A DNA stretch of 64,000 nt. Origin: Bacteroidota bacterium. GTDB taxonomy: Bacteria > Bacteroidota > Rhodothermia > Rhodothermales > UBA10348. Below the pieces are notes generated by a model. That model was not told the origin of the DNA, did no database searches, and saw only the letters and a program-made list of their open reading frames with translations. This document shows positions 29,306 to 46,713 of this stretch, one piece after another. The DNA lies in NCBI GenBank assembly GCA_029262835.1, contig JAJCYQ010000089.1, forward strand, positions 1 through 64,000, read 5' to 3'. Numbering within the stretch: position 1 is the first letter of the stretch; the number at the start of each line of letters is the position of its first letter. The translations under genes and the position numbers were made by a program.

Positions 29306-30124
29306 TCATGATCCTGTTTTCTGGAGGATACGACCCGCCAGCCGCTCCATCAAGCTGCGACAGCTGGCATCCTGCAGGGTCCTCAGCGGCTCGTCGCCGT
29401 CCGATAGGTCATAGGCGTGCGGATAGCAGGACAGCGGCCCCTCCAGCAGATACTGCCTGAAACCCTGTTCGACGTCCGGCATGGCCAGAACACCGACCCA
29501 GGCCTGCGTCAAAACGACATTCGTATCTCCGAGTACGGGCAGACCGAGTACGTGTGCTCCCCAGTAGGCCGGATGATCGTCCAGGAACCCGACCGGGATG
29601 AATCCGATGTCGGCATGCGATCGGAGCAATTCGAGAAGGCGGCGCCCGTCCGATCCAGCCCCGTAGATGGCAATGGGCATTCCGAAAAGGCCAGAAGCCA
29701 GCAGTACCCGTTTTACGGCGCGGCGCGCGATCGGTAAGAGGAGGAGGACGGACGGAAGCGTGAAGGCCACGGTCGCCACGTTTGGAGCAGCAAACAGCAC
29801 CCAGAGGCCGAATACGGCGAGGAGAGTGCCCAGCTGGCGGCTGAGCTCTGCCCTCCGGTCGAGACCCCATCCGGGGTAGAGGCCCCGTATGGCGAAGCCT
29901 GTAAGGCACGCCAGAGCGACCACTGCGGGAAGCGCCGCCAGCTGCACGAGCGCTGCCAGAATCAGTAGATCGCCCGCGAAGAGGAAGGCGGCGTTGTGAG
30001 CACGTCTGACGTGCATGGCCTTCCTGGGAACGGTTTTCCGCTGGGCGGCGAGCTCCAGGTGTGCCACGAGGCAGTCATCTACGCTTCCCCGCTTCAAGGG
30101 GCGGTTCTGTACCAGTAGTTGCAT
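29306..30124 (-). CDS. membrane protein resembling the N-terminal TM and CoA-binding-like half of WbaP-type sugar-1-P transferases, without catalytic domain
   Basis: GLYPGWGLDRRAELSRQLGT and IYGAGSDGRRLLELLRSHADIGFIPVGFLDD...LGLPVLGDT; no C-terminal bacterial sugar transferase domain. Confidence 0.65.
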   Translation of the reverse strand: MQLLVQNRPLKRGSVDDCLVAHLELAAQRKTVPRKAMHVRRAHNAAFLFAGDLLILAALVQLAALPAVVALACLTGFAIRGLYPGWGLDRRAELSRQLGTLLAVFGLWVLFAAPNVATVAFTLPSVLLLLPIARRAVKRVLLASGLFGMPIAIYGAGSDGRRLLELLRSHADIGFIPVGFLDDHPAYWGAHVLGLPVLGDTNVVLTQAWVGVLAMPDVEQGFRQYLLEGPLSCYPHAYDLSDGDEPLRTLQDASCRSLMERLAGRILQKTGS

Positions 30125-30239
30125 GCGGGTTGGAATCCTGAACGGGTGTTTCCCATCCATTATCCATAACCGTGCCACTTTATCCAACCCGTGAAATATG
30201 GTACGCGACGCACGTGGGAACGGGTGGTTGTCTCATGAT

Positions 30240-30471
30240 TGGTCCCATAGCGGGAGCAGCACTCCTGTGGGGGATGGGACTACAACGACTCGTACGTTGC
30301 CCCCTGCATCCCCGTATACGTGACAGGTTGTAGAATAGCCTCCGTAACCGACCGGTTCAACCGGTACAACCTGCCAGTGGACAACGGCACACGGTCGGTT
30401 CATCACCTCTCAGTGATGATTGGTTCTGGGTGAGTGGCCCGGCCTTCTCGCGAAGGCCGGGCCACTTTTTT
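30240..30471 (+). ncRNA. candidate structured non-coding RNA / switch-like RNA ending in an intrinsic terminator
   Basis: No plausible CDS; multiple perfect complementary segments (CTACAAC/GTTGTAG, CAGGTTGTA/TACAACCTG, AACCGACCG/CGGTCGGTT); plus-strand terminator 30434-30471. Confidence 0.45.
30434..30471 (+). terminator. strong intrinsic terminator, plus strand
   Basis: GTGGCCCGGCCTTC-TCGC-GAAGGCCGGGCCAC followed by TTTTTT. Confidence 0.9.
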
Positions 30472-30532
30472 GTCCGCAGAAACGCGGGGCATACTCTCGG
30501 ATCTTGGCACTTTGAAGAGGTCGTGCGCCGCC

Positions 30533-32176
30533 CTACTGTACAATCAGCTGCCGGGTCTTGTCGAAGACCGTTCCCGAGAATCCCTCGACGGTCATGCGGT
30601 AGAAGTAGAGTCCCGCGGGCAAATCATCGACCCGAAGGGACGTCGTATGCCACGATCCGCCGTCCATGAAGGTATCCTGGAGAACACGGAGCTCTCGTCC
30701 TGCTGTATCGAAGAGGTGGATGCGGACGAACCCGTCGTGGGGGGCGAAATAGCGGAACGTAGCCGCACCCGTTGTTGGGTTCGGCCACGCGTCGGTAAGC
30801 GTGAACTGCAGCGGCGTATCGACACGAACTACAGTTGTCGCCAGTTCCTGACGGCGCCCATCGACCGAGCGGCCAACGATACTGTAGGCAATATCGATGT
30901 CTTCTGGAGCGGTCGCGTCGACATACGAACCGCTCTCAGCGCCCAGTTCGGCGAGCACGGTCGTGCTGCGACCTATGCTGCGCTCAATGACGATAGAAGA
31001 CAGTGTACCCGCATCCAGGACATCCCAGGAAAGGTGCACACTGCCGTCCTTCACGTCAGCGGCTGTCACTGCTGCAGCACCAATCGGAGCGTTGCCGTCA
31101 ATGAGCAGCTGCGCCACGTCGGCACGCAATTCGGGCAAGAGCACATAATTGTTGTCACCGGGGCAGGCCGTCGAAGAGAAGTCCCGATGCCCCCGAATGA
31201 GTTCGGGTTCAATACCGTATCGCTCGCTCAGGAAAGCAAACAGCGTGGTGTACGTGCTGAGTGCTTCGGGAGTGATCTGTTCTGCACACTGGGAGCCTTC
31301 GGGTGGATGATAGCATCCAAGTATCGATACGCCGATGTTTCCCGTGTTCACGCCTCCAACGTGGGCACCGAGTGCCAGGACGGGCACCTGGTCCAGCGAC
31401 GTGGATCCATCCAGGAACGGGCGTCCCTGGTAGAGCCGCCCGCCACGATCAATCAGGAACTGGTACCCGATGTCACTCCAGCCGCGTCCGTTCTGGTGAA
31501 AATCCTGGATTGACTTGACCGCAGCAATGCCCTCGGCACGCGTCGTGGCCGACCAGCCGGCGGCGTGGTGGAACGTCATATACCGGAAGGCCCCGGTCGT
31601 CAGGGGAGACGGGCTGCCGCCCTTGAAGGAAACGGCACCCCATTCGGCGCGCGTGATAAGCGGCGGAGGAATGATGTCGCCTGTTGATTTCCCGGCCACG
31701 GCTACGAGTCCCTCCGGCACATTCCGGTCGACGTCGAGCGTGTTGTCGAAGACGCCCGACTCCCGGATGACTGTGATGGCGGACGGATCGGCAAGCACCC
31801 GGATCTCGTACCTGGTGGCGCCGATCACTCCGTCACGGTATAAACCTGCGAGAAACGTACCGCCAGCGGGGCTTGCAGTTACATGAGCCGCCTCCCAATC
31901 GCTCCAGGACGCACCACCATCGTCCGAAAAACGCACGTCAACTTCTACGTCCGGGGCCGTGGAGCCAATTTCAACAGCGACCCCCGAAAACGGTACCGGC
32001 ACCGGATCCGATACCCTCGAAACGGAGACCCGTTTGCCGAGCGGGGCCGTTTCGACTGGGCCGAGCGCAACCTCGGCATCGACCATATCATGGATAATCT
32101 GGGAGGAGGCTGTCGGTACTAGAAGAAGCAGCACGAGTAGTGCTGAAAGGCCATGGAAACGCATGCGGCTAGACAT
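30533..32176 (-). CDS. peptidoglycan-recognition-type N-acetylmuramoyl-L-alanine amidase with T9SS C-terminal sorting domain
   Basis: ITRAEWGA, TFHHAAGWS, DIGYQFLIDRGGRLYQGRP, RGHRDFSSTACPGDN; C-term AWPNPTTGAATFRYF...LPAGLYFYRM. Confidence 0.92.
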   Translation of the reverse strand: MSSRMRFHGLSALLVLLLLVPTASSQIIHDMVDAEVALGPVETAPLGKRVSVSRVSDPVPVPFSGVAVEIGSTAPDVEVDVRFSDDGGASWSDWEAAHVTASPAGGTFLAGLYRDGVIGATRYEIRVLADPSAITVIRESGVFDNTLDVDRNVPEGLVAVAGKSTGDIIPPPLITRAEWGAVSFKGGSPSPLTTGAFRYMTFHHAAGWSATTRAEGIAAVKSIQDFHQNGRGWSDIGYQFLIDRGGRLYQGRPFLDGSTSLDQVPVLALGAHVGGVNTGNIGVSILGCYHPPEGSQCAEQITPEALSTYTTLFAFLSERYGIEPELIRGHRDFSSTACPGDNNYVLLPELRADVAQLLIDGNAPIGAAAVTAADVKDGSVHLSWDVLDAGTLSSIVIERSIGRSTTVLAELGAESGSYVDATAPEDIDIAYSIVGRSVDGRRQELATTVVRVDTPLQFTLTDAWPNPTTGAATFRYFAPHDGFVRIHLFDTAGRELRVLQDTFMDGGSWHTTSLRVDDLPAGLYFYRMTVEGFSGTVFDKTRQLIVQ

Positions 32177-41533: not shown

Positions 41534-43366
41534 ATGTCGATGCCGAACCGATTAACGGTGTTCTTTCTTGCCTTCCTTACCCTGCACGCGCCCGATGTTC
41601 TTCGGGCACAGGACGTGACGGACAAGTGGGAAATGAGGGGCGCCTGGATTGCGACGGTCATCAACCTGGACTGGCCATCGAACGCGTCGCTCTCTGTGGC
41701 GTCCCAGCAGGCCGAACTCACGACAATATTCAATGGTTTGGAGGACCGGGGAATCAACGCCGTCTTTTTCCAGGTCCGTTCGGAAGCCGACGCCATGTAT
41801 GCTTCGAGTCTCGAACCCTGGTCCCGCTATCTGACGGGACTCCAGGGGCGCGCTCCCAACCCCGTATGGGACCCATTGGAAACAGCCGTCGAGTTGGCGC
41901 ACGCCCGAGGGATGGAGCTGCACGCGTGGGTAAACCCGTTTCGGGCCGTCCGGCAGACGAACGCTTATCCGATTGATCCAGGGCACATATCGGAAACCAA
42001 CCCCGAGTGGATACTGGAGGTTGGTACCCAGAAGCTGCTGGATCCGGGTAATCCAGATGCGCGCGCTTTTGTGATCGACGTCGTTCGGGATATCCTGGTT
42101 AGATATGATGTCGACGGCATCCACTTTGACGACTATTTCTATCCGTACACGCCGGTAATCGGTGCCCAGGACGATGCCACACATGCCGCCTATAATCCTG
42201 GGGGCCTGCCGAAGGGCGACTGGCGTCGAGAGAACATCAATATCTTCATGCGAGACGTGTATACCGCCGTAGTAGAAACGAACCCCGAAGCTCTCTTCGG
42301 CGTGAGCCCGTTTGGGATCTGGCGCAACGGGGTGCCCTCGGGGATCACGGGGCTGGACGCATACAATGTGGTTTTCGCCGATCCTCTGGCCTGGTTTGAA
42401 GACGGATCCATCGACTATCTGGTGCCCCAGCTGTATTGGCAGTTCGGCGGCGGTCAGGACTTCGGTACGCTCGTTGACTGGTGGCCAGCGCAGGCACAGG
42501 CCGCCGCCAACCCACGGCCCATTTACGTCGGCCATGCTGTCTACAAAATGGATACGAGCGACAGCTTCAATTGCTGTTATGCGGCCGATGAACTCTCGCG
42601 GCAGATCCGGCGGGCCCGGGCCACAACGGGTGTGGCAGGGTCCGTGCACTTCCGTGCGGCCGACCTTCTCACGTCCACGAATCAGGGGTTCTCGGACACA
42701 CTGGCTACCGATCTGTACGCAGTGCCTGCGTTTCGAGGCCCACTGGGACACCGAGACGCGTTCCCACCCGGGGCGCCCGACAACTTGTCGGCGCTCTCGG
42801 CGGCCGGTACGGTCCTTCTCTCATGGGATCCGTCCTTTTTCGGAACGCCAGCCCGGCGTTTCGCCGTATATCGTGTCATTGGTGAGGAGCCGGTGGACGT
42901 GCGTGCCGTGACGAACAATCCGGAGCATCTCGTAGCCCTTACCTACGAGCCCCAATTCAGCGAGCCCGTGCCCGTGGGGGGAGAGCCTGGAGCGCCGAAT
43001 ACGGCCTATTATATTGTGACGGCGCTTACATTCAACAATGTGGAAGGCCCGGAGAGCAACGTGGTCAGCATTGCAACGAGTACGGCTACAGAGGCTGTTG
43101 TGCCGGATTCGCGGCTGGTGGTGGATGTGTACCCGAATCCAGCTCGCCGTCACGTCCAGATCGTTGTAGGCGGCAGGCACTACGCGGACGTGCCCCGCAT
43201 CCGCATATATGACGTCGCAGGACGGCTCGTTACCTCGCTGTCGGGAACGGAGACCACGTGGGATCTGTCCGCTCAATCCGGGGGACGCGTGGCGCCGGGG
43301 CTGTACCTGATCACCGTCCAGTTCGGTACGCAGCGGCAGACGCGGACGGTGCTGGTTACACCATGA
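41534..43366 (+). CDS. family 10-like glycoside hydrolase (GHL10/DUF187) with T9SS C-terminal sorting domain
   Basis: MRGAWIATVINLDWPS, MELHAWVNPFR, YDVDGIHFDDYFYPY; C-term VYPNPARRHVQIVV. Confidence 0.9.
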   Translation: MSMPNRLTVFFLAFLTLHAPDVLRAQDVTDKWEMRGAWIATVINLDWPSNASLSVASQQAELTTIFNGLEDRGINAVFFQVRSEADAMYASSLEPWSRYLTGLQGRAPNPVWDPLETAVELAHARGMELHAWVNPFRAVRQTNAYPIDPGHISETNPEWILEVGTQKLLDPGNPDARAFVIDVVRDILVRYDVDGIHFDDYFYPYTPVIGAQDDATHAAYNPGGLPKGDWRRENINIFMRDVYTAVVETNPEALFGVSPFGIWRNGVPSGITGLDAYNVVFADPLAWFEDGSIDYLVPQLYWQFGGGQDFGTLVDWWPAQAQAAANPRPIYVGHAVYKMDTSDSFNCCYAADELSRQIRRARATTGVAGSVHFRAADLLTSTNQGFSDTLATDLYAVPAFRGPLGHRDAFPPGAPDNLSALSAAGTVLLSWDPSFFGTPARRFAVYRVIGEEPVDVRAVTNNPEHLVALTYEPQFSEPVPVGGEPGAPNTAYYIVTALTFNNVEGPESNVVSIATSTATEAVVPDSRLVVDVYPNPARRHVQIVVGGRHYADVPRIRIYDVAGRLVTSLSGTETTWDLSAQSGGRVAPGLYLITVQFGTQRQTRTVLVTP

Positions 43367-44204
43367 GCCGGTCCTTCAGGATTTTCGAGCGTTCGCGGCT
43401 GGCAATGACCTCGTGTCCGCCGGTCAGAACGAGCTTGAATCGGCCGGAGAACCATGATATCAGTTCCTTGATGTGGCGTTGCTGGACAATGGCCGACCGG
43501 TGCACGCGCATGAACTGATCCGGATCGAGGAGCTGCTCGAGTTGGTCCAACGTGTAGGACACGATATGTTGTTTGAGGCGGGGCCGGGGGGTGTCCGTCT
43601 CCCGGTCAATGAGAAATACCCGCGTAATCCCTTCTGAAATTTCGACCGATACCAGATCGGAGACGGGGACAATAAGAATGCGGTCCCGGTACGGGATGGA
43701 CAGCTGCTCGAGGTACTCGGCATCTTTGGCCGAGGCCTGCTCGTCCCGACGGGCGCTGCCGGATGGATCCTCGACGGCCGATGCATCCATCCAGTCGAGC
43801 AGTCGTGCCAGCCTGTTTTCGAGTTCCGTGCGCGAGGCAGGGGCGGCGAGTACGCGCGCGGCCCGCTCGACGGCGCTGGCGAACCGGTCCTTGGGGATGG
43901 GTTTCAGGAGATAGTCGACCGCGTTGGCCTCAAAGGCTTTGATCGCGTATTCGTCGTAGGCGGTCGTGAAGACGACGACCGGGCGGGTGCCCGGCTCCAG
44001 GCGGTCCAGCACGTCGAAACCATCGTATCCGGGCATCTGGATATCGAGGAACGCCAGATCCGGTTTTTCGCGGCCAAGCAGTTCCAGCGCCGACGGCCCG
44101 TCGTCGGCCTCGCCCACAACGTGGATGTTGTCGTGATCGGAAATCAGTTTGCGCAGACGCTGCCGCGCGGGGGCTTCGTCGTCAATGATTACGGTTCGGA
44201 TCAT
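43356..44204 (-). CDS. LytTR-family response regulator
   Basis: REC MIRTVIIDDEAPARQRLRKLI...DLAFLDIQMPGYDGFDVL; LytTR PDQFMRVHRSAIVQQRHIKEL. Confidence 0.94.
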   Translation of the reverse strand: MIRTVIIDDEAPARQRLRKLISDHDNIHVVGEADDGPSALELLGREKPDLAFLDIQMPGYDGFDVLDRLEPGTRPVVVFTTAYDEYAIKAFEANAVDYLLKPIPKDRFASAVERAARVLAAPASRTELENRLARLLDWMDASAVEDPSGSARRDEQASAKDAEYLEQLSIPYRDRILIVPVSDLVSVEISEGITRVFLIDRETDTPRPRLKQHIVSYTLDQLEQLLDPDQFMRVHRSAIVQQRHIKELISWFSGRFKLVLTGGHEVIASRERSKILKDRLMV

Positions 44205-46713
44205 GGGATGGTGTGCTGTTTGGTATACAAAGACGGGCCGTCGTGCCTTCGCCGGCCGTGCTGGCCAGTTGGAGGAGGTCGTCACGCCCGTAAAGCTGCG
44301 TCATGCGTTCAAATACGTTGGATAGGCCAATTCCGAAAAAAGGTTGCCGGCCGCTGGAAAAGCCCGTCTCCGGGAACAGAGCCGGTATGCCGGCACCCGA
44401 GTCCCGAACTTCGACAACGACCATGGACATATCGGCGTCCGTGGGTTCCGCGACGCGGGCCGAAATGGTGAGGCGGCCTGCGCCGCGTACTTTCTCTATT
44501 CCGTGCTTGATGGCATTCTCGACCATGGTCTGCACGGCGAAGGCGGGCACGGGATGCGCGCAGGCACTGGATTCAATGGACACGTCGACCTCGAGTCGGT
44601 CTCCGAAGCGTGCCTGTTCAATGTTCAGGTACCGATGGACGAGCTGGATTTCGTCGGAGAGCGGAACGAAGGGTTTGCTGCCTGTCTGGAGGGTATACCG
44701 GAAAATGGCGGCCAGGTTTTCCACCACCTCTTCTGCTGTCGATGGCTGCTCCTCGATGAGCGAAAGGATGGTATTGAGGGCATTGAACAGGAAATGCGGG
44801 TTGATCTGGGCGCGGAGTGCCACCAGGTGCGCCTCGGAGCTTTCCGATGCCAGGCGCTTTTCGCGTTCAACCATCTGGAGGCGCTCGGCGGCCAGTCCGA
44901 CGTGCACGGCAAACGAGCGCAGCTGCTCGAGGTCTTCCAGGTTGTAGACGGCGCGTCGCGCGGTTTTGGTCGCCAGAATGAACATCCCGACGGGCCGGCC
45001 GTCTCCGCGGACGGGGATGGCGAGTGCGGCTCCGTATTCCATGAGGGTACGGTGCGCGCGCGCGGGCAGCGTGTGGGTGCTGAGCTCCGGGTTGCGCGCC
45101 CAGATGGCCGGGTTGGCACGGAAGTGGGGCCAGAGCGAGAGAAACACCTGTTCGGTCACATACGGGGCGGTCGGATTGAAATTGCCCATGACCCAGGTCT
45201 CGGGTTCGGAGGGTGATTTCAGAAAGAGTACGGCGCTTCGGGCGCCGAATGCGCTCGCCGCGACGCGGACGGCTTCGGTGGCGAGCGTCTCTGCATCCAG
45301 ATAGTCCGTGATGCCTTCAATGAACCGCGAAACGGCCTTTCGCGCGCGTGAACGCTCCGCACTGAATATCCGGGTCACCTGCACGCGCAGTCCCCGTCCG
45401 AGCCGTTCGAAGGCAATCAGTAATATGACCACGAGAAGGCCTTCGATCACGATCCGGGAGTTACCCTCCCGATCCAGCCACGTATCGAGCGCGGTGACGC
45501 CGCCCACGAACGTGAAAAAGATGAGGCCGAGGGCCAGCGTGTAGACGAACGTGCGTGAGAGAATGTCGTCCACCTTGCCGTATCGAAGTGTACCGATGGT
45601 ATAGATCGTCACCGGCACGACGGCCAGGAGTTGGGCCGACACGATGATCCAGCCGGTTACCTGCTCGGTGAGCGCCGTAAGCAGTGGGATGACGCCGAGT
45701 ACGGCGAGGGCGACGACCACGGAGACGAATACGATGACGGAGCTGCCTGCCCGACCCCAGCCCTCTATGTGCTCCGGGTTGTGGCGGGCGGGATCGGCGA
45801 GGAGCGCGGCGGCGGCACTGACTCCGATGTAGCACGACGCGTAGAACAGGATGGGAACGAGCAGATCTTCCACGCTGACCGGACCGAGGGCGCCCCTGGC
45901 AAGCGTGACAAGGACCACCAAAACGAGCACAAAGGGGACAAGCAGCAGGAGCGGGCGCATCCAGCGTCCTGACCGCGACAGGACACCGGTGTCGGTCGTT
46001 ACCTTGAGCACGAGGAACAGTGGAAATCCGATCCAACCGGTCAGTCCGACGGTTGTAAGCACCTGGAAAAGGGTATCGTACGCGGTGCCGGCATGTGGCG
46101 GGCCGAGAAGTTCCACGAGCAGCATGCGGGCGAGGTTACCGAAAATCCAGAGGGAGGAGACAGCAATGAGAGCGAGCTCAAGGCGGGCGGCACGGTTGTG
46201 ACGGGCGAGTGGACCGGCGATGAACAGTCCAAGCAGGTGCAGGAACGATCCGAGCGTGAAGCCCCAGAGCGAAAATTGCCACAGTGTACCGGAGCGTGGA
46301 TAGAGGAACGTCGGGTGCCGCGCGAGTTCTACAGAGGCTTCTACAAATTCGTTGCCGCGCGTGAGCAGGTAGGTGCGCGTCGTGCCCGGGCCGAGGAATG
46401 CAATGGAGTTTTTAAGGTCCTCGGCGTAGAAATACTGCTGATTGTCCCAGAGGAAGAGCACATCCCCATCCCGGATGCCCGCCTCATATCCGGGACCCGC
46501 CGGGAAAACATATTCGGCCGTGATGGCTCCGTCGTCATCTTCCCATACGATCCAATCGGATGCCCGGGCGCCGGAATCCATGGGTGTGTTGGCATCCTGC
46601 TGGTAGGAGGCTACTTCATACCAGTCGAGCCCGACCTGCACGAGCGGCCAGGCCGAGAGCACGGCTGCAAAGAGAAGCAGCGCATGGAGAATATGGGAGC
46701 GGGCGGAGGTCAT
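44182..46713 (-). CDS. LytS-like sensor histidine kinase with GAF-like region
   Basis: LRAQINPHFLFNALNTILSLIEEQP (His_kinase), HATPase motifs, multi-TM N-terminus; adjacent LytTR regulator. Confidence 0.92.
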   Translation of the reverse strand: MTSARSHILHALLLFAAVLSAWPLVQVGLDWYEVASYQQDANTPMDSGARASDWIVWEDDDGAITAEYVFPAGPGYEAGIRDGDVLFLWDNQQYFYAEDLKNSIAFLGPGTTRTYLLTRGNEFVEASVELARHPTFLYPRSGTLWQFSLWGFTLGSFLHLLGLFIAGPLARHNRAARLELALIAVSSLWIFGNLARMLLVELLGPPHAGTAYDTLFQVLTTVGLTGWIGFPLFLVLKVTTDTGVLSRSGRWMRPLLLLVPFVLVLVVLVTLARGALGPVSVEDLLVPILFYASCYIGVSAAAALLADPARHNPEHIEGWGRAGSSVIVFVSVVVALAVLGVIPLLTALTEQVTGWIIVSAQLLAVVPVTIYTIGTLRYGKVDDILSRTFVYTLALGLIFFTFVGGVTALDTWLDREGNSRIVIEGLLVVILLIAFERLGRGLRVQVTRIFSAERSRARKAVSRFIEGITDYLDAETLATEAVRVAASAFGARSAVLFLKSPSEPETWVMGNFNPTAPYVTEQVFLSLWPHFRANPAIWARNPELSTHTLPARAHRTLMEYGAALAIPVRGDGRPVGMFILATKTARRAVYNLEDLEQLRSFAVHVGLAAERLQMVEREKRLASESSEAHLVALRAQINPHFLFNALNTILSLIEEQPSTAEEVVENLAAIFRYTLQTGSKPFVPLSDEIQLVHRYLNIEQARFGDRLEVDVSIESSACAHPVPAFAVQTMVENAIKHGIEKVRGAGRLTISARVAEPTDADMSMVVVEVRDSGAGIPALFPETGFSSGRQPFFGIGLSNVFERMTQLYGRDDLLQLASTAGEGTTARLCIPNSTPSHDPNRNH

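Follow-up and report, generated by a model that had tools for sequence, protein, structure and literature searches.

FnrS of the enterobacteria is an anaerobically controlled sRNA that serves an oxygen regulon under Fnr as its RNA arm, and the regulator of the RoxS/RsaE sRNAs, ResD/SrrA, is of the OmpR type. RoxS/RsaE of Bacillus and Staphylococcus belongs to the ResDE and NO regulon and acts on redox and respiration mRNAs via C-rich single-stranded regions (PMC4409812), and the PaiI sRNA of Pseudomonas aeruginosa is NarXL-dependent (PMC5703892). Among oxygen-sensing two-component systems, FixL-FixJ is a close parallel to the one considered here; the FixJ site is TAAGTAATTTCCCTTA, with footprints at -69/-44 and -57/-31 of fixK (PMC4999443). 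We found no report in the literature of an sRNA under FixJ, and no described sRNA in Rhodothermales.

The locus described here lies in a 64,000-nucleotide stretch of a Rhodothermales contig (the window), and genome comparison leads us to conclude that its positions 30344-30471 encode a genuine small regulatory RNA, absent from earlier catalogues, of an uncultured Rhodothermales family. It is probably switched on at low oxygen, since its promoter has the same sites as oxygen-regulator and low-oxygen-respiration genes. Like RoxS/RsaE, it would answer to a two-component system of respiration or NO, but the two are unrelated in sequence and structure. FnrS differs in being under Fnr rather than two-component control, and also has no sequence relation to the RNA. 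PaiI comes from a different phylum, no homology to it was found, and its regulator is linked to NarX, whereas in the Rhodothermales the regulator has a haem kinase of FixL type as its partner by linkage, and the induction is a predicted one. Coordinates are collected in Table 1.

Table 1. Features of the sRNA locus (window positions)
Feature	Position	Strand	Description
Response-regulator palindrome GTGGGGGATGGGACTAC	30267-30283		Putative site, 17 bp; 62-64 bp upstream of -10
CCTGCAT box	30303-30309	+	Counterpart of conserved CCTACAT, 27-28 bp upstream of -10, where a -35 would stand; probably a half-site of the regulator
-10 box TAGAAT	30331-30336	+	TANNNT in 18/19 homologues, 11-13 bp before hairpin 1
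sRNA gene	30344-30471	+	About 128 nt: hairpin 1, invariant core, linker, terminator; match to covariance model R1, which includes the window sequence itself, E 1.4e-19
Hairpin 1	30346-30400	+	Basal helix 30346-30354 with 30392-30400; interior freely variable among relatives
Hairpin 2a, CAUCAC-CUCUCA-GUGAUG	30401-30418	+	U/C-rich loop 30407-30412
Alternative hairpin 2b	30403-30433	+	UCACCU (30403-30408)/GGGUGA (30428-30433) enclosing UCAGU (30410-30414)/AUUGG (30419-30423)
Invariant linker AUUGGUUCUGGGUGA	30419-30433	+	Unpaired when hairpin 2a forms; may be a segment for pairing or for protein binding
Intrinsic terminator	30432-30471	+	16-bp stem, TCGC loop, U tract

The interval 30188-30532 lies between two minus-strand genes, as the initial annotation had it, and the next credible plus-strand gene begins at 41534, in keeping with the earlier statement that there is none before 41.5 kb. 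The perfect terminator reported there is likewise borne out, with a stem of 14-16 bp (30432-30447/30452-30467), a TCGC loop and a T6 run ending at 30471; it is present only on the plus strand, and the fold of 30230-30475 is more stable than those of shuffled sequences (z -3.3). No credible ORF had been seen in the region, and the homologues indeed have none in common. Short chance ORFs do overlap the sRNA in single genomes, and these might suggest a short mRNA, a leader or an attenuator instead of a free-standing RNA; such an origin is highly improbable, however, given that the homologues preserve no frame across the core, that the terminator closes the RNA 11 kb short of the next plus-strand gene, and that in most genomes the gene 3′ of the sRNA runs towards it on the minus strand. 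A coding gene was discarded, its frame not being conserved. The locus thus has what marks a stand-alone bacterial sRNA, namely its own promoter, an intrinsic terminator, a conserved structure and no conserved ORF, and the proposal that this is a structured RNA in its own right, ended by a terminator of its own and with no gene downstream, is strongly supported by the homologues, the covariation and the conserved promoter.

The amidase and PorV-like genes downstream of the sRNA are constant across genera. The gene upstream (29306-30187, minus strand) is CoA_binding_3-like in the window and in two sister species, and its place is taken in other genera by a sugar-nucleotide epimerase-like gene or a fatty acid desaturase. 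At 155-189 bp upstream of the core, homologues L006-L015 share the box TTATCGACC, with CATAAG or CTAAA after it. The window's copy lacks this box, which may serve as promoter for the divergently oriented epimerase gene. We note also a LytTR-like response regulator gene (43356-44285, minus strand) near the end of the sRNA's gene neighbourhood.

The homologue search and covariation test suggested in the initial annotation found both conservation and covariation in relatives. When 60 related genomes were searched by blastn with 30190-30475, matches were found in 20, concentrated on 30394-30433; most of the genomes compared here are MAGs. The exact core pattern occurs on only 16 contigs in the genomes of 84,980 species, and those with informative titles are Rhodothermales or Bacteroidetes/Bacteroidota MAGs. 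A covariance model built from 19 sequences gives solid members, one copy each, in 19 of the 114 genomes of the order (E 1e-14 to 1e-25), and the 245 genomes of the class that were searched add no other solid one. All but one of the 19 come from the window's own Rhodothermales family. The exception, in genome G047 of another family, is the most distant homologue and has no recognisable palindrome or -10 box; it lies at an unrelated locus (L091, on contig C23 of that genome), upstream of an asparaginyl-tRNA synthetase-like gene, and the locus together with the missing palindrome suggests that the RNA gene was relocated or transferred. Weak model matches of 28-34 bits in genus g9 are not members, being either a different RNA-like element or chance terminators. 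That genus does contain a second conserved RNA-like element (L061:1501-1621; L083-L087), found in six genomes, with multiple hairpins (CCGACCCCTGAGCAAGGTCGG, CTGATACTC..GAGTTTCAG), a strong terminator and a linker, TTGGTTCGGTATGGAGC, whose TTGGTTC..AGC is similar to the linker of the sRNA at 30344-30471; it has no match in Rfam.

A search of the window and seven homologous loci against Rfam 15 gave nothing at the gathering threshold, and the best sub-threshold matches of the sRNA region (20-22 bits against cut-offs of 42-47) are attributable to chance. The earlier suggestion of a 6S-like RNA fails, as there is no 6S (RF00013) match in the window, nor at E up to 10 in 30100-30560 or in the genome. 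The size and terminator are a loose fit to a diverged housekeeping RNA (6S, SRP, RNase P or tmRNA), but in view of these results, and of a patchy spread over the order and a promoter of regulated type, both of them untypical of such RNAs, we consider this identity the least probable of all.

Over the whole structure of 22 pairs, 96.9 % of the alignment cells pair and 10 pairs have changed on both sides, against 4.8 in shuffles; when the partner is slid by 1-3 columns as a control, pairing is at most 41 %. The covariation comes mostly from hairpin 1 and the terminator. The basal helix of hairpin 1, AACCGACCG (30346-30354) with CGGTCGGTT (30392-30400), had been recognized from the window's letters; it exists and covaries in relatives, with 96.8 % of cells paired and three of five pairs changed on both sides, and the terminator helix has six of 11 pairs so changed. 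The CATCAC/GTGATG helix (30401-30406/30413-30418) was also correctly picked out, and as hairpin 2a it is near-invariant, with 98.2 % of cells paired. Core columns 74-101 (approximately 30404-30431) are almost letter-identical in all 19 sequences, and covariation is thus unable to test the core; within the same 19 sequences the linker, columns 89-103 of alignment A1, is nearly all invariant.

Upstream of the RNA the -10 box, the CCTACA box and the palindrome stand at fixed distances in 18 of the 19 members (G047 excepted), and no TTGACA -35 was found upstream of the sRNA in the homologues, a layout from which we infer a promoter of activator-dependent type. The palindrome consensus among the sRNA promoters is GTARGGNNTTNNMYTAC. 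The window's copy is degenerate (11.2 bits, versus approximately 15-24 in nearly all other members), with perfect copies in sister species, and is the only match of at least 10 bits in the window. The three elements of fixed spacing, with the -10 box 13 bp upstream, place the start of the sRNA at about 30344 rather than at 30190 as had been proposed, and GTTGTAG, CTACAAC, GGGGATG and CATCCCC are therefore promoter DNA. This removes several of the helices in the initial annotation. GTTGTAG/CTACAAC lies wholly at or upstream of 30333 and has a pairing probability near zero even in a long fold, CAGGTTGTA/TACAACCTG includes promoter bases at or upstream of 30333 and is likewise near zero in the long fold, and GGGGATG/CATCCCC also involves bases of that region. 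The alternative helices 30280-30333 and 30324-30373, wholly or partly promoter and outside the RNA, were accordingly dropped. Since these helices use bases of the -10 box or palindrome upstream of the start, the claimed A-B-A′-B′ pseudoknot, whose partner helix CAGGTTGTA/TACAACCTG is partly in the promoter, does not hold. The hairpin ACCGG-TTCAA-CCGGT is broken in sister sequence L002 (ATCGGTTCAACAGGC).

A matrix for the palindrome, trained on sRNA promoters only, finds matches at 16 of 29 loci of one NarL/DevR/FixJ-type response-regulator family and at none of 58 background pieces (Fisher p 6e-10); one of the 29 (in genome G004) includes the sRNA promoter itself, plus two further sites. None of 300 palindrome-preserving column permutations reaches 16 such loci. 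The near-consensus pattern GTARKGNNTNNNMYTAC occurs only twice in the window's 3.4-Mb genome, and one of these copies lies 16 bp after the stop codon of a member of the family, RR1, upstream of a TonB gene. A second palindrome (L098:10306-10322, 17.1 bits) is located about 1 kb after RR1, between tonB and a weakly matched nitroreductase-like gene, and recurs in several genomes. RR1 is closest to DevR and NarL, is 75 % identical to its G004 homologue, and is present without the sRNA in some genomes (genera g6, g7 and g10). Its paralogue RR2 is divergent from a ccoNOP-ccoG cbb3 oxidase operon (ccoN TIGR00780 above cutoff), with palindromes between RR2 and ccoN (L129:8368-8426, within L129:6809-9216, contig C23 of the window's genome). 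The arrangement recurs in several other genomes, and these palindromes are a candidate hypoxia regulon that may be readable in many Rhodothermales genomes. In G004 the sRNA is off its usual locus, between two LuxR-type response regulator copies that are RR1-like, beside narGHJI and an RIC/ScdA Fe-S repair gene (TIGR03652). The sRNA promoter thus carries, by association (the matrix enrichment at RR1/RR2 and the cco, nar and ric context), a putative site of a respiration two-component regulator.

In the window's genome RR1 adjoins a histidine kinase with a haem PAS of FixL type and a HisKA_3/HATPase module. At E 1e-29 the PAS matches solved FixL haem domains, PDB 8js5 and 1dp6 among them, and the alignment takes in the RHD haem-ligand region, which places it among FixL-type haem-PAS sensor domains and predicts haem binding. 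The FixL equivalog NF041777 scores 132.8 bits against a curated cut-off of 850, and the FixJ equivalog NF006900 72.1 bits against 255; by these matches the likeness to FixL is limited to the sensor domain. The system is like FixL-FixJ in the haem PAS with its RHD motif, in palindromes very similar to TAAGTAATTTCCCTTA in sequence and promoter position, and in a linked cbb3 oxidase locus, but differs in its kinase half, a HisKA_3 of the DesK/NarX/DevS type, and in its regulator, which is nearer to DevR/NarL than to FixJ. That the RNA is real and its palindrome is bound by a regulator outside this FixL/DevR-like system seems rather unlikely: the evidence for RR1/RR2 is indeed one of association, and sites of the LuxR family can look alike, but the matrix is enriched at RR1/RR2 loci, RR copies flank the sRNA in G004, and the palindromes are similar to FixJ sites.

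The RNA family, its covarying structure, the geometry of its promoter and the association of the palindrome with the regulators and with the cco and nar/ric loci were all computed, and on this basis we think it likely that the RNA, about 128 nt long, is a stand-alone sRNA that acts in trans and is activated, via RR1 and/or RR2, by a two-component system sensing oxygen. The signal would probably be falling oxygen, because RR1 is encoded beside the FixL-type haem PAS histidine kinase, and falling oxygen (possibly NO or nitrate) would relieve or activate this kinase. The phosphorylated NarL/DevR/FixJ-type regulator (RR1 and/or RR2) would then bind the palindrome near -68 and the CCTACA half-site near -37 and, if it activates rather than represses, would drive expression of the sRNA up to the terminator at 30471; it would also activate cco and, in G004, the ric/nar neighbourhood, control presumably running in this direction. 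The sRNA may act in trans on mRNAs by base pairing through its invariant core, that is, the loop CUCUCA and the linker AUUGGUUCUGGGUGA, and so tune the switch to microaerobic or anaerobic respiration.

The targets of such pairing can be named only as leads. Matches to the loop complement TGAGAGGTN{0,8}ATG are at control level near start codons, and no gene recurs. A search for the linker complement (at most two mismatches) gave 18 non-self matches in genome G000 against eight in the control; three of those in G000 fall on start codons, namely those of sufC, of a probable outer-membrane protein of 285 aa and of a lipoprotein, G015 has none, and one duplex only is clearly better than shuffles. 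The sufC start region and the two envelope-protein starts are the best, though weak, target leads, and no recurrent mRNA target emerged from the loop- and linker-complement searches. We also considered whether AUCACCUC copies the 3′ end of 16S, which would make the RNA an anti-Shine-Dalgarno mimic. Bacteroidota 16S ends in ...GGAACACCUCC, so that the sRNA would have only CACCUC in common with it; the pattern GGNTGGATCACCTCCT is absent from the six genomes searched, and this candidate was dropped.

The same sRNA under the same regulator could instead be a protein-binding sponge or scaffold, with the invariant core as the protein-binding element. Some 30 nt of the RNA are near-invariant even though hairpin 1 is unrecognisable in sequence across genomes, and this, with the lack of a recurrent mRNA target in the searches, lends the idea a modest chance; however, no known protein-binding consensus was recognised in the core, and multi-target trans-acting sRNAs also have invariant seeds.

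The trans-acting RNA that we favour may have a further property. Mutually exclusive folds had been proposed from the window, and while they do not stand for the helices then named, which are mostly promoter DNA, they may survive elsewhere, in the invariant core 30401-30433. The RNAalifold consensus prefers hairpin 2b in the core, and in the window sequence hairpins 2b and 2a, which exclude one another, have energies of -8.7 and -8.2 kcal/mol, respectively. Hairpin 2b shows no covariation in the alignment, and the few core variants mildly favour 2a. It is conceivable, if doubtful, that the core is a built-in two-state switch, in which 2a would expose the linker and the CUCUCA loop and 2b would bury the linker, the two being of near-equal energy in most members, and that the activity of this oxygen-regulon sRNA is toggled, for example, by a protein or a partner RNA.

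As a family the sRNA appears to be new, but its presumed function is of a kind already known from FnrS, PaiI and RoxS; the controller proposed for it is unusual, and its core may be bistable. The RNA gives the Rhodothermales a concrete sRNA family, together with a proposed full path from a haem-PAS kinase through a DevR/NarL-type regulator and a palindrome to the sRNA, the cbb3 oxidase and the nitrate-respiration loci. If this is true, oxygen-responsive sRNAs arose under another, FixL/DevR-like, type of control, and the palindrome would define, for a group that has been little studied, a hypoxia regulon open to testing.
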